From contig JAJFVK010000008.1 in the NCBI GenBank assembly GCA_021371795.1, positions 62,001 through 126,000 on the forward strand: DNA of 64,000 nt, read 5' to 3'. Under the pieces are notes generated by a model, which searched no databases, was not told the DNA's origin, and saw only the letters and a program-made list of their open reading frames with translations. Of this stretch, positions 24,245-28,822 are shown in pieces. This DNA comes from Planctomycetaceae bacterium (GTDB lineage Bacteria; Planctomycetota; Phycisphaerae; Sedimentisphaerales; UBA12454). The translations under genes and the position numbers were made by a program. Positions within the stretch are counted from its first letter, which is position 1. Each line of letters opens with the position of its first letter.

Positions 24245-25543
24245 TTATTTCTTTGCGGCTTTAACTTCAGAATTTGTGCAATCCATAACTTTGAAGATGG
24301 TGGTGTTATCAATATAGTTTCTGCTGTTAATGCCGAAGTAAAAAGAAGAACCGATTTTGTCAGAGCCGATGATATAGTTATTGAACATTTCGGCGTTTTT
24401 CCCCTTTGCGAAAAAGGGCACTAATGAATTTGTATGTTTTTGGGAGTTGAACTCCATTTTGGGTATTGAAATTCTACCGTTGCTGACGATGTCGCCGAGA
24501 GAATTAACATCTCCGGTTAGGAAACCGCATTCATGGTCGGCTGTAATTATAAGAAGCGTGTCATTCCAAGAGCCATTCTTTTCGACCCATTCGATTACAG
24601 CTTTGACAGCCGCGAAAAAATCCAATTCTTCTTCTATCATTCGGTCTTTCTGATTTGCATGATTTGCCCAATCGACTGCGCCGCCTTCGATCATAATACA
24701 GAAACCATTCGTATTTTTATTAAGAACATTTAATGCGCCGATTGACATCGTTGCCAAAGAAGGAACGTTAGTGTTGAACTTCGCACCGGCAGGGCGTGCC
24801 TGTTGAGCTGTTGTTGCCGCCTGAATGATGCCGATAACTTTGTCCTGATTTAAGCTGCCTTTCGCGAGTTGCTCAAAATCTGTTTTTGTTTCAATCATCG
24901 TAAAATTATTTGCCTTGTTCGCGATGATTTCTTCCCACGTATTTTTACCGCCGACATAGTTATAATCCGGTGCATTTTGTTGTGTTCCATCATCGTTATA
25001 GAACGGATGGCCTGCGCCCATAATTACATCGAGTCCGCTTTTTAAAATCATTTCATTTGCGATTTCGCTGTAATTTGCTCGGCTGCGATTATGTGCTCCG
25101 CAGGCTGCCGGTGTTGCATGGCTGAATGCGACGGTTGTTATCGCGCCTGTAGCGTATCCGCGTTTCGAAGCCAGGTCGAAAATGGATGTTGTGTTTTGGC
25201 CGTTTATCTGGTTGATTGCGTTGTTGTAATGTTTTTTTCCTGTGTATATTGTGCTGGCGGCCGCGGCGGAGTCAGTTGGAATATTTCCCGCCCATTTTAT
25301 ATCACCCCACATCTTCACAGCATTGTAATCTCCTGTCGGGTTACTGGCAGAATACGTCTGCATAGACATTTTTACATCGAAGCCGAACTGTTCCATAAAA
25401 TTATAGCCAAGATACATATTTGCTGCGTTAAGCGTGTTGTAACCCTGACCGTCGCTTATCATAAGAATTACGTTTTGTTTTGCCTGGGTCAGACAACCAC
25501 AGACAGATAACAAGATGATGCATAAAATCTTAATGTTATTCAT
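24245..25543 (-). CDS. Alkaline phosphatase, secreted
   Basis: 432 residues with a signal peptide that has a possible lipobox (SVCGC). Alkaline phosphatase landmarks are present: the metal-binding Asp in MISDGQG, the nucleophile Ser in TDSAAAASTIYTGKK, HNRSRANYSEI, MIEGGAVDWANHAN and TADHECGFLTG. It releases phosphate from organic monoesters outside the cytoplasm. CAGGAAA precedes the ATG. No Pho box or phosphate transporter is in view, so its regulation cannot be inferred. Confidence 0.9.
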   Translation of the reverse strand: MNNIKILCIILLSVCGCLTQAKQNVILMISDGQGYNTLNAANMYLGYNFMEQFGFDVKMSMQTYSASNPTGDYNAVKMWGDIKWAGNIPTDSAAAASTIYTGKKHYNNAINQINGQNTTSIFDLASKRGYATGAITTVAFSHATPAACGAHNRSRANYSEIANEMILKSGLDVIMGAGHPFYNDDGTQQNAPDYNYVGGKNTWEEIIANKANNFTMIETKTDFEQLAKGSLNQDKVIGIIQAATTAQQARPAGAKFNTNVPSLATMSIGALNVLNKNTNGFCIMIEGGAVDWANHANQKDRMIEEELDFFAAVKAVIEWVEKNGSWNDTLLIITADHECGFLTGDVNSLGDIVSNGRISIPKMEFNSQKHTNSLVPFFAKGKNAEMFNNYIIGSDKIGSSFYFGINSRNYIDNTTIFKVMDCTNSEVKAAKK

Positions 25544-25663
25544 GTTTTTTCCTGAAACTAAATTTTTATCAATTTAAAGCACTTTTATTTGGGAAAAATT
25601 AGGAAAGATTTAGGATTGTATTAATAATTTTTAGTGTAGTCAAGTTTTCATTTAAATAACAAA

Positions 25664-25691
25664 TTGGCGGAAAAGGGATACGAATCCAGGA
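25664..25691 (-). other. tRNA 3'-end-like fragment
   Basis: On the minus strand, CCTGGATTCGTATCCCTTTTCCGCCA resembles the T-arm and acceptor 3' end of a tRNA, with an encoded CCA-like end. The T-loop is imperfect and no 5' tRNA half precedes it, so it is at most a degenerate remnant. Confidence 0.25.
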
Positions 25692-25701
25692 CATTGCATA
25701 G

Positions 25702-25726
25702 AAACGACTCCTGACACCGTTTTTCA
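25702..25726. repeat. Degenerate REP-like element (ACTCCTGACACCG)
   Basis: ACGACTCCTGACACCGTTTTT matches the ACTCCTGGCACCGTTTT core found beside the transposase gene at 28030, with one change. It overlaps the stop codon of the neighbouring membrane-protein gene. Confidence 0.65.
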
Positions 25727-26725
25727 TTTAACTGCTTTCTTTAGGACATAATATTGAGGTTTCATTCCACGGATAGTTACATCTCCGCTTAGCCATGGGT
25801 AGAAAAGATATGTTTCGTCATTTATTAATTTTATGCAGTACATAGCTTTTGTTTTTTTGTCACAGGTATATATCCAGTCTTTTTTCCATAAGTCGCTTGA
25901 CGAAGTGGTACCATCGGGATTAAAGCTAATGTCCTTTAGAAATAAACTGCCTTTCCATTGAGTATTACCGAGTTTAAAATCGTTGACCTCGCTGACGAAA
26001 TCCACGCTTTGCCAATAGCCGATAAGATTGCTGTCAGATTCGCTTGCAGTAAGGGGACGCGGTGAATTACCCATCACAGTATTCATCCCCAGTGTACTGC
26101 CGAACAAAATAACAATAAGTATTTTTGAAGTAATCTCTGCCAAAATCAAACTAATAATAAAAGTTACTGCCGCTTTTAAGCCTTTGAAATTACAGGAAAC
26201 AGCGTATGCCCTGTACATCAAAACTACCATCCAGACTATCATTATGATGCTGATTAGTAATGCAGCAGAAAAGATGGCCGCATCGGCGGGATTTAAAACT
26301 GCTGCTTCGTTGTTTTGTCCAAGTTTAGACAGGAGATATTCGCCGAATCTGCGATTTGCGTCCGGCAGCATAACCAGTGTTGTCAACAGTGCAGGCCATC
26401 GGGATAGTGCTTGAGTGCCCAGCACATCAATAAATCGCCACTGTACTTTTGAAACAATTAAAGCTGATAGAACCAAAAACAACACCATACACAACCAGTC
26501 AATTATGCTTTCCGCGAAGAATAACCATACTGGTGCTTTCAGGCCGGTGTGAACATCAAGAACGCCGTCAAAATGCGTATTGCTCAACGCTCCTATATAT
26601 GCAGTTGTCAGAATAACTATGATTCCCAGCAGTAAGGCTTTTCCGCCGGCAATAAACTGAAACGGATTAAACAGCCATTGCCTTAAACTTCTGTTTTGTG
26701 AAAGATTTAATGTTTTATTTTCCAT
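25724..26725 (-). CDS. Multi-pass membrane protein with WxSVDFV lipocalin-like C-terminal module
   Basis: About 333 residues. The first two thirds hold five or six membrane helices in Yip1-like arrangement (LNPFQFIAGG-type start, here FNPFQFIAGGKALLL). The last 110 residues are a soluble module: YWQSVDFVSEVNDF, WKGSLFLKDISFNPDGT, TYLFYPWLSGDVTIRGMKPQYYVLKK. The same module occurs inside the giant M56 protein at 4657. It overlaps the preceding DUF2089 gene by 11 bases, and AAGGTG before the ATG at 26725 fixes the start. It is the last gene of a four-gene operon. Confidence 0.75.
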   Translation of the reverse strand: MENKTLNLSQNRSLRQWLFNPFQFIAGGKALLLGIIVILTTAYIGALSNTHFDGVLDVHTGLKAPVWLFFAESIIDWLCMVLFLVLSALIVSKVQWRFIDVLGTQALSRWPALLTTLVMLPDANRRFGEYLLSKLGQNNEAAVLNPADAAIFSAALLISIIMIVWMVVLMYRAYAVSCNFKGLKAAVTFIISLILAEITSKILIVILFGSTLGMNTVMGNSPRPLTASESDSNLIGYWQSVDFVSEVNDFKLGNTQWKGSLFLKDISFNPDGTTSSSDLWKKDWIYTCDKKTKAMYCIKLINDETYLFYPWLSGDVTIRGMKPQYYVLKKAVK

Positions 26726-27005
26726 TGTTATCACCTTTATTGGCTGAATTTTTTATATGCTCGATAATACCGTCGAGATAATTTCTAACCGTGGGGTAAC
26801 TCAAGTTTTGCAGGTTAGCCATTTCTTTCAGTGACCCGCTGCATTTTACAAATTGCAGAATAAACTCCTGTTCTTCAATTGTCATTTTCGCCAAAGGCGG
26901 CAGTTCAAAAGAACCTTCGATTTCGGTATCGCATTTCTGGCACGACAATCTTTTGATATTGAGTGGACTTTCGCACGCCGGACATATTGATGGTAGTTTT
27001 TTCAT
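26715..27005 (-). CDS. DUF2089-type protein: zinc ribbon plus helix-turn-helix
   Basis: 96 residues. An N-terminal zinc ribbon has CPACESPL and CQKC (C-x2-C...C-x2-C). The remainder, with EEQEFILQFVKCSGSLKEMA then LQNLSYPTVRNYLDGII, is a predicted helix-turn-helix as in DUF2089 proteins. Such proteins are likely transcriptional regulators. In this operon it probably controls the membrane proteins on either side; this is inference from position. Confidence 0.8.
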   Translation of the reverse strand: MKKLPSICPACESPLNIKRLSCQKCDTEIEGSFELPPLAKMTIEEQEFILQFVKCSGSLKEMANLQNLSYPTVRNYLDGIIEHIKNSANKGDNNGK

Positions 27006-27009
27006 TTTT

Positions 27010-27513
27010 TCACTTTTTTATAGCTGAATTAATTGCTGCTGTAAGTTCTTCAGATTTTTGTGAACCGATAAGCAGTTTTTTTCCGTTTTTGAAAACAATC
27101 TGTAATCCTCTGTTGCCTTTCATATTATAGGCCTTGCCGTTTTTACCATATCGTATTCCCCATCCGCCGTATTCCGCTATTGGTTTGTACTCACAAGCGT
27201 AACATTCGTTAATATCTTCAAAAGGAAATTTTTTGAAATTTATGTGTAGTGGAAAAAAGCGAACATACAAACCGTTAGCACAGACTTTTGTCTCCAGTTT
27301 GCACATTCCTATTAATATGGATATTGAGAACGGAATAATTCCCGCTAAAGCAAGAATGATTACCATAGTTGGCTCAATAGGTTTGTTTTGCGAATGCAGA
27401 TAATGAATAACAAATATAATGGCGCCAATGAAAACAAATAAGTCTAACGAGAATATTAATCGTATCCATTTACTTGGTTTTTGTTCTTCACTGAAAATTT
27501 CTGTTTCAATCAT
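27010..27513 (-). CDS. Two-helix membrane protein with PH-like domain (DUF6141-like)
   Basis: 167 residues. Two adjacent membrane helices (about 18-40 and 46-68) precede a domain with an LYVRFFPLHINFKKFPFEDI segment and a GGWGIRYGKNGKAYNMKGNR segment ending in LLIGSQKSEEL, the pattern of bacterial PH-like domains that sense or bind membranes. The family name is tentative. The ATG at 27513 is used; the longer reading upstream overlaps the SdpI gene in another frame. Confidence 0.65.
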   Translation of the reverse strand: MIETEIFSEEQKPSKWIRLIFSLDLFVFIGAIIFVIHYLHSQNKPIEPTMVIILALAGIIPFSISILIGMCKLETKVCANGLYVRFFPLHINFKKFPFEDINECYACEYKPIAEYGGWGIRYGKNGKAYNMKGNRGLQIVFKNGKKLLIGSQKSEELTAAINSAIKK

Positions 27514-27527
27514 GATATTTTCCTGAA

Positions 27528-27866
27528 TTATAGTTTCCAAAGATAAAGAAAAGAAGCGAGGATTACAATTAGTGTTCCACCGGTGAGAAAAAACAGGTTT
27601 CCTGTGATTATATAAAAAGGGTCCGATGTTTTTAATATTACAAGAACAATATTGTAAATAATTTGTATGCAGCCCATGACGATGAAAGCTTTCGCCATAT
27701 ATTTGTTTGCTTTGAACCAAATTTCGCGATTGTCCAAAGTTTTTTCTACTCTAAATCCATACCATTGATTCGGCCCAATTTTTTCCAATAAGAGCGGAAT
27801 TGAAATGGCGACAAAGATCAAATCACAAACAACAAAAAAGAAAATTGATAGTAATATTTCAGACAT
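27528..27866 (-). CDS. SdpI-family membrane protein
   Basis: 112 residues with three to four membrane helices. The SdpI family signature is present: PNQWYGFRVEKTLDNREIWF followed by KANKYMAKAF. SdpI of Bacillus is an immunity protein that also sequesters its repressor at the membrane. Here it is the first gene of an operon with a DUF2089 regulator, which suggests a membrane-stress or immunity unit, but no toxin gene is visible. Confidence 0.8.
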   Translation of the reverse strand: MSEILLSIFFFVVCDLIFVAISIPLLLEKIGPNQWYGFRVEKTLDNREIWFKANKYMAKAFIVMGCIQIIYNIVLVILKTSDPFYIITGNLFFLTGGTLIVILASFLYLWKL

Positions 27867-27966
27867 TTTTACTATTTCCGGATAATTTTATAGAAATAAT
27901 ACAATATAAATGAATAAAATCAATATAAAAATCAATAATATTGATATTTTAATAAATAAAAACAAA

Positions 27967-27992
27967 TAAATGATTCCTGGCACCATTTTTTT
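27967..27992. repeat. REP-like element upstream of the RAYT gene
   Basis: AAATGATTCCTGGCACCATTTTTTT shares the TGAnTCCTGGCACC core with copies at 28694-28715 and, inverted, 28795-28822. Confidence 0.75.
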
Positions 27993-28029
27993 TGTTGCAT
28001 TTTAAAGTGCAGCTGTTAGTATGTGTTTT

Positions 28030-28728
28030 ATGGCAAGACCATTAAGAAGAACGCCGGCAGGTTACGCGTACCATGTTTTCAACAGGGCTAATGCTCGTGT
28101 CCCCATTTTCGTTGACGAAAAAGATTATGCCTGCTTCGAAAAACTCATCGTAGAAGCTGTTGAAAAATTTGATATGCGAGTGTGTACATATTGCATAATG
28201 CCGAATCATTGGCATCTTGTGCTGTGGCCTAAAGAAAACGATTCGCTTTCGGAATTTGTCGGCTGGCTTACTATGACACATACAAAGAGATGGCATAAAG
28301 ACCATCAGACCAATGGATACGGACATTTATATCAGGGGCGTTTCAAAGCATTTCCGGTTCAGAATGATTCGCACTTTTTAACACTGTGCAGATATGTCGA
28401 GCGTAATCCTGTGAACAGTGGTCTTGTAGGGAACGCACAGGATTGGAGATGGTCTGCGATGTGGCATCGTTGCAATGGTGGCAAAAGCAATATGTTACCG
28501 TATTCTGACTGGCCGGTAATTATTCCGGATGGTTGGCTGGGTTTAGTAAATCAAAGTCTTAGCGAAAAAGAGGTTTTAGAGATTCGGCGATGTTTTGATC
28601 GCAGCCGGCCTTTTGGTGAAATTGCCTGGATGCAAAAGACGGCTTCTTCACTTGGTTTGGAATCTGCTATCCAGCCTAAGGGCAGACCTAAAAAAATGAC
28701 TCCTGGCACCGTTTCTGTCCGCAGATAA
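28030..28728 (+). CDS. REP-associated tyrosine transposase (RAYT)
   Basis: About 232 residues of the Y1 transposase family: N-terminal GYAYHVFNRANAR, the IMPNHWHLVLWP motif carrying the HUH metal-binding histidines, and LCRYVERNPVNSGLV, in which the Tyr of the RYVERNP segment is a candidate nucleophile. RAYTs are usually single-copy domesticated relatives of IS200 that act on REP hairpins. The gene is flanked by TGACTCCTGGCACC elements, one of which encodes its own C-terminal MTPGTV segment, so it presumably acts on these. The ATG at 28030 is chosen for the conserved MARPLRR start. Confidence 0.92.
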   Translation: MARPLRRTPAGYAYHVFNRANARVPIFVDEKDYACFEKLIVEAVEKFDMRVCTYCIMPNHWHLVLWPKENDSLSEFVGWLTMTHTKRWHKDHQTNGYGHLYQGRFKAFPVQNDSHFLTLCRYVERNPVNSGLVGNAQDWRWSAMWHRCNGGKSNMLPYSDWPVIIPDGWLGLVNQSLSEKEVLEIRRCFDRSRPFGEIAWMQKTASSLGLESAIQPKGRPKKMTPGTVSVRR

Positions 28729-28822
28729 TACTTCCCATAAATTTATTTGCCTGTCAGTCTGACAGGCAAACTGCTATTTTGCCATTGTTTTTTTAAAAAA
28801 ACGGTGCCAGGAGTCATTTATC
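28694..28822. repeat. Inverted pair of REP-like elements around a perfect palindrome
   Basis: A direct copy AAATGACTCCTGGCACCG (28694-28711) lies in the 3' end of the RAYT gene and an inverted copy CGGTGCCAGGAGTCATTT (28802-28819) follows. Between them, 28746-28770 is a perfect palindrome of 12-base arms TTTGCCTGTCAG/CTGACAGGCAAA with a single-base centre. Together they resemble a REP doublet with an internal hairpin. Confidence 0.75.

Follow-up and report, generated by a model that had tools for sequence, protein, structure and literature searches.

The locus described here probably harbours a TIRYT-type Y1 transposase that is stationary and maintained by vertical descent, accompanied by a cognate family of sites of about 22 bp, on which nicking and movement are predicted. 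It lies in a window of 64,000 nucleotides, the whole stretch of planctomycete DNA that was analyzed, and the picture that emerges is one of a transposase that stays put while its sites disperse slowly. TIRYTs, named in 2013, are a known but little-studied kind, for which a common element consensus, symmetric arms and a conserved tail are now available; since the element type follows the protein type across phyla, a protein-to-site recognition code becomes testable.

The window carries a Y1 (HUH) transposase gene at 28030-28728 on the forward strand, encoding 232 aa (the ORF tool placed the start at an upstream ATG, 28021), and its match to Pfam Y1_Tnp (PF01797, 5.4e-17) bears out the Y1-type assignment made in a preliminary description of this DNA. 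The HUH motif N-H-W-H (28204-28215, +) is invariant in an alignment of 42 proteins (A1), where its W is biased because one homologue search pattern contained NHW, and the codon of the catalytic tyrosine, Y122 in RYVERNP, lies at 28393-28395 (+), the residue being nearly invariant in the same alignment. A phmmer search returned one solved relative, 4er8 (E 0.006), whose HxH aligns to the HUH motif and whose Tyr115 aligns to Tyr122. The AlphaFold2 model of the transposase (pLDDT 90.7), which shows helices at the C-terminus and a tail of low confidence, also found its best PDB match in 4er8 (E 2.7e-8), the structure of E. coli TnpA-REP together with its REP hairpin, with IS200/IS605 transposases ranking after it. 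The NCBIfam REP-associated model scored 67.2 bits, under its cut-off of 80, PHROGs gave a single family of unknown function (7.2e-5), and the best named match, from Planctomycetes bacterium GWF2_41_51, is 86% identical.

The organism's own genome (G000; 2.85 Mb in 28 contigs) holds one copy of this gene, the nearest paralogue being 64% identical. Four Y1 genes were found there, each with flanking repeats, of three types in all. The element type beside the 64% paralogue has few copies in this genome, and the element type GGGACAGCCACC has nine (up to 3 mismatches). Two Y1 paralogues of about 30% identity (L008 and L009) possess the same GRPKK tail and the motifs NHIH and NHVH; the inverted repeat at their flanks is another one, AATTAGGGACAGCCACCTATTTTT, present in nine copies in the genome.

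Toward the C-terminus the protein carries an AT-hook-like tail (KGRPKK), in which Gly218-Arg219-Pro220, encoded at 28681-28689 (+), is as invariant in alignment A1 as the HUH motif. This invariance is valid for A1 alone, because the tail-less L111 and L115 are among the six of 47 full-length named relatives left out of it (the others being L091, L093, L099 and L100). When the six of 80 proteins shorter than 205 aa are excluded, 71 of the 74 full-length proteins carry GRPx within their final 35 residues and 43 of the 74 carry the basic form [RK]GRP[KR], and GRPx is missing from L070 (GRPF), L111 and L115. Across 64 loci, the GRP codons end a median of 12 bp ahead of the downstream element. The core of an AT-hook is GRP flanked by basic residues; we infer the name for the tail from this core, since Pfam AT_hook matched three of the 42 members at E<=1, with a best value of 0.091. 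Among the Pfam matches (E<=1) of the same 42 members there was no HTH family, the C-terminal helices being predicted by the model, and the open-licence literature yielded no related paper linking an AT-hook to RAYT or TnpAREP.

The element itself was traced with TGACTCCTGGCACC, which at up to 2 mismatches matches the window four times (25705, 27971 and 28697 on the forward strand, 28803 on the reverse strand), where 0.10 matches are expected and none of 100 shuffles reaches four. At least three copies frame the gene, one of them inverted, as had been described: the upstream element at 27969-27988 (+), whose orientation is opposite to that of most relatives, the downstream element at 28695-28714 (+), within the 3' end of the gene, and a second, inverted downstream element at 28799-28818 (-), which is the outer partner of the upstream one. 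These outer copies form an inverted pair of 27 bp with 93% complementarity (27966-27992 and 28795-28821). Because the ORF terminates in ...GRPKKMTPGTVSVRR, the copy inside its end encodes MTPGTV, and the translation agrees with the earlier reading on this point. The solitary copy AACGACTCCTGACACCGTTT at 25703-25722 (+), previously placed at 25702-25726 and called degenerate, turned out to be canonical: it has genome and sister-species matches, shares 23 identical bp with a sister-species copy, and its arms pair better.

The core of the window elements is GGTGCCAG and that of many relatives GGGGTCAG; AAACGGTGTCAGGAGTCGTTT is an element sequence of this family, and GGGGTCAGGAGCC is an element type of relatives distinct from the window type. 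When folded as single-stranded DNA, the two flanking copies of the window reach 0 kcal/mol, in the case of the downstream element, and -1.3 kcal/mol, against -3.4 to -6 kcal/mol for four elements of relatives. Rfam at its gathering threshold gave one tRNA in the window. A perfect 12+1+12 palindrome of 25 nt, TTTGCCTGTCAG-T-CTGACAGGCAAA (28746-28770), separates the two downstream elements and is unique in the window; the sister species carries it too, with its centre base complemented, as the match is on the opposite strand.

An element confined to this locus, which the preliminary description had named as a refuting outcome, was not what the genome showed. Exact TGAYTCCTGGCACC occurs five times in the own genome and AATGACTCCTGGCACCGTTT (up to 3 mismatches) 14 times, 10 of these away from the gene, with 0 matches in the reversed control in both cases; a search with the 14-mer alone, allowing 2 mismatches, finds 16 sites, and its reversed control finds 5. 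By mechanical ORFs, the 10 dispersed copies comprise five in intergenic DNA, of which three sit 4-18 bp past a stop codon, two that overlap an ORF end and supply the stop codon of that ORF, and three within coding ORFs. In the case of an EamA-type gene (L015; named by eye), a copy at the 3' end provides the stop codon in G000, and no copy exists at that place in G155, G157, G159 and G160; as it is missing in these four other species of the genus, parsimony points to a gain in this lineage. At a kinase-like gene (L016) the relatives align with the copy without an indel, so that element matches need not all be insertions. The kinase-like gene of G156, G158 and G160 (L152, L154 and L155) contains in-frame insertions of ERSEA-K/Q/E-S-type peptides in the same loop, which are missing in G000, G155, G157 and G159.

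No longer mobile unit was recognized in 35 distinct contexts, in which no base outside about -4 to +22 of the 19-mer, itself the selection pattern, reaches 60%. A few dispersed copies have longer stretches in common (64-88 and 58-93 bp). The element copies of L010, L014, L118 and L127 share 64-88 bp, a possible composite repeat, and in at least L010, L014 and L118 a second palindrome-like stretch, GTTTTCA-ta/gt-ACTGAAAAC, adjoins the element. Downstream of one dispersed element and a hisA-like gene (L002:1825-1880) we observed the stretch CAGCCGTCCTCTGCGAGGATTGAAAT, which we take to resemble a single CRISPR repeat.

We extended the count to 161 genomes of the order with the pattern AAYGACTCCTGRCACCGTTT (up to 2 mismatches), which gave 14 matches in G000, 11 in the sister species G155, 13 in G157 and 2 in G156, and elsewhere at most two per genome (11 matches in nine genomes), the reversed pattern occurring 6 times across all 161. 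Chance as the origin of the window and genome copies is ruled out by the shuffles, the reversed controls and this order-wide count. Transposases at least 60% identical were present only in G000 and G155 among the matches listed. G157 has its 13 elements with a best transposase match of only E 3.2e-13 in an assembly that is 82% complete; elements without a close transposase go against a one-to-one rule and may reflect loss of the gene or an assembly gap.

The gene occupies the same place in G000 and G155, beside a response regulator and groESL, and the elements at its ends have the same orientation in both. With a dN/dS against the sister species of 0.126 (groEL, 0.071), the transposase gene is under purifying selection. 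A block of about 3.6 kb (24245-27866) separates the transposase from an isochorismatase-like gene, and G155 lacks it at this place; it carries an alkaline-phosphatase-like gene (by eye) and genes for DUF2089, DUF6141 and SdpI-family proteins. Six dispersed sites are common to several species, with the same orientation at four and the opposite orientation at two, one further candidate set of dispersed copies having been rejected as a shared site. The opposite orientations are those of G157 relative to G000 and G156, downstream of an acyltransferase-like gene, and of G155 relative to G157 in another spacer. G157 has two copies against one at both of these sites; therefore three explanations fit, and the difference could come from inversion of the site in place, from more than one insertion at a hot spot or from turnover within a tandem pair. 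The hairpin doublets that had been envisaged were not found away from the gene, where six close pairs occur (one in G155 and five in G157), all of them direct.

Matches to the transposase were present in 105 of the 161 genomes of the order, and 83 loci were collected (53 from named genomes, 29 from the order, and the window), of which 76 were usable after removal of three duplicates and four with short flanks. Phyla were taken from record titles, with order-level genomes counted as Planctomycetota and records of unknown phylum kept as their own group; they include Patescibacteria groups and Planctomycetota. At 68 of the 76 loci the gene flanks contain an inverted pair of related elements with a score of at least 28, as against 0.26% of 380 shuffled flank pairs, the shuffles preserving single-base and not dinucleotide composition; a control of mismatched loci passes the same score in 13% of its 912 pairs, an effect of the related elements that the loci have in common. 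A direct pair at this score is also present at 22 of the 76 loci. The inverted pair is missing at eight, two of which (L067 and L093) have a direct pair.

Dropping four of the 68 pairs (L056, L111, L112 and L113) left 128 elements from 64 loci, whose consensus is AAAAGG(G/T)GTCAGG-N-(A/G)CCTTTT. The verrucomicrobial relatives L112 and L113 are flanked by a very different, perfectly palindromic repeat, TGCTCGCAGCATGCTGCGAGCA. Both cores face the gene at 55 of the 64 loci, the nine exceptions including the window and its sister, and the transposase stop codon falls inside the downstream arm match at 45 of 65 loci. A generic element pattern was applied to 34 genomes, which hold 35 of the 53 named loci, and occurred in 24 of them with 147 matches against 1 in the reversed control, a count that includes gene-flanking copies because the pattern came from those genomes' own elements; at least four matches were present in 14 genomes and none in 10, and several had the gene-flanking pair only.

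The two arms of the element are symmetric. After removal of elements scoring below 9, 123 of the 128 were kept, 82 of them unique, and arm positions 4 and 18 are paired in 63 of the 82 (shuffle mean 39, maximum 55), in A-T, T-A and C-G forms. The pair 7-15 is weaker, with 38 against 30 and a shuffle fraction of 0.009. The symmetric register contains 477 paired cells, compared with 225-346 when the arms are slid. Columns 10-12, which are one base apart and unable to pair in a hairpin, also reach 77 of 82, above the shuffle maximum of 74; relatedness alone can therefore yield covariation values of this kind. Symmetric recognition of double-stranded DNA would fit the arm data equally well. Element similarity also follows protein identity, with a Spearman coefficient of 0.38 over 65 loci (null maximum 0.19 of 500) and of 0.30 for cross-phylum pairs (null maximum 0.18 of 200). 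At 50% or more protein identity, the mean element score is 23.2 within phyla (465 pairs) and 22.9 across them (168 pairs).

In the mechanism that we propose, the HUH domain would bind a single strand of the element folded into a weak hairpin, to which the asymmetric GGKGTCAGG core would give polarity, and Tyr122 would nick at the element. A single element would occasionally be moved or copied to a new A/T-rich place, often directly past a stop codon, and the AT-hook-like tail may help to grip the A/T arms. Through the elements at the ends of the gene, its own locus is probably a target of the protein too. A further proposal, which we consider unlikely, is that of a widespread Y1 clade with a predicted C-terminal AT-hook that would handle single quasi-palindromic sites of about 22 bp, not whole elements, move them behind stop codons (the site being able to supply the stop) and invert their asymmetric core in place.

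Elements that are chiefly regulatory, as terminators or operators of the transposase and other genes, and kept and spread by selection and not by the transposase, would account for several copies lying directly past stop codons, for the A-tract and T-tract arms, and for the stop of the gene within the element at those 45 of 65 relatives' loci. Yet the element sequence tracks the transposase across phyla, window-type copies are almost restricted to the genus, three of the 10 dispersed own-genome copies lie in coding ORFs and the window copies fold weakly, which makes this explanation quite improbable. We see still less room for a whole mobile insertion sequence, which we find barely tenable. 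The ends of IS200/IS605 elements are subterminal hairpins, not inverted repeats, whereas the ends of such an element here (27966-28821) would be the 27-bp, 93% inverted pair that encloses the gene and recommends this interpretation; the single gene copy, with its nearest paralogue at 64%, and the same place in the sister species largely contradict an IS200/IS605-type whole element on copy number and synteny.

The preliminary description had spoken of a compact RAYT/REP system in a planctomycete, of which the RAYT-like character of the Y1 transposase and the dispersed element family that belongs to it stand and the canonical RAYT/REP system does not. Own dispersed elements flanking a Y1 gene, and E. 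coli TnpA-REP as the closest fold, would suit such a GTAG system; however, GT[AG]G, sought at both feet of each element, stands at a foot in 6 of 128 elements and in 45 of 1280 random windows and is not enriched, the NCBIfam score is under its cut-off, 14 copies are few, and the 0 and -1.3 kcal/mol of the window copies fall short of a stable hairpin. This system, which the foot test rules out in its canonical form, is in our view very improbable.

Our preferred reading, a stationary transposase with its own site family, can be placed beside several described systems. The E. coli TnpA-REP/REPtron (4er8; PMC8266576) is alike in its alignable HUH fold and catalytic Tyr and in the own elements that flank its gene. 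It differs from the present transposase in that the GTAG foot is missing here and the elements per genome are few, a Tyr stands here where its WQ motif has the Trp, and extra C-terminal helices and a tail are present; canonical RAYT/REP copy number is usually >100, as far as the available text of PMC2817692 goes. Some relatives (G175, G186) have inverted pairs with a spacing of 63-92 bp that resemble REPINs (PMC3116915); unlike these, the genus copies distant from the gene stand alone or form direct pairs. IS200/IS605 elements have small subterminal hairpins in the available text of PMC6006769.

The open-licence literature contained no paper on Sedimentisphaerales with a transposase, and, among the matches listed, no related paper on GGGGTCAG with a transposase and nothing new to the question on group 1 RAYTs with inverted repeats; in the available text of that literature we found no report of the GRP tail, the arm covariation or the stop-in-element habit. 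As far as the available text of Quentin et al. 2018 (PMC6006769) shows, 20 of 26 TIRYTs fall in TnpAY1 subclass 2.1 (Bertels group 1), which probably corresponds to the TIRYTs. This subclass has a median length of 238 (232 here) and is alike in Y-x-x-x-N-P, an extension after the core and low copy number. Its motifs are NHVH or NH[YF]H and YIELNP-type; those here are NHWH and YVERNP, and the W is not among the residues (L, V, I, F, Y, M) that the same text gives for the HUH motif in class 2. Also in that text, its tails are HTH/DnaA-like and its genes have no REP-like sequences nearby, whereas the tail here is AT-hook-like and elements flank the gene.

Taken together, the transposase and its elements, with inverted flanks and a GGGG/GGTG core, fit the TIRYT/TIRtron kind better than canonical RAYT/REP. 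Di Nocera et al. 2013 (PMC3733652), in the part available, described TIRYTs and TIRtrons as Y1 transposases with terminal inverted repeats, some of which overlap the gene as in the window, and whose repeat family in some genomes has further members at other places, standing singly, as dimers or in groups. The terminal inverted repeats of the window are likewise unrelated to GTAG REPs. The arm covariation and the GRP tail seen here are not reported for TIRYTs in the available part of that paper, and the upstream element of the window is reversed with respect to most relatives. Some of the repeats described there carry GGGGWSAS, which the GGGGTCAG core of many relatives fits and from which the GGTGCCAG core of the window is two letters off.
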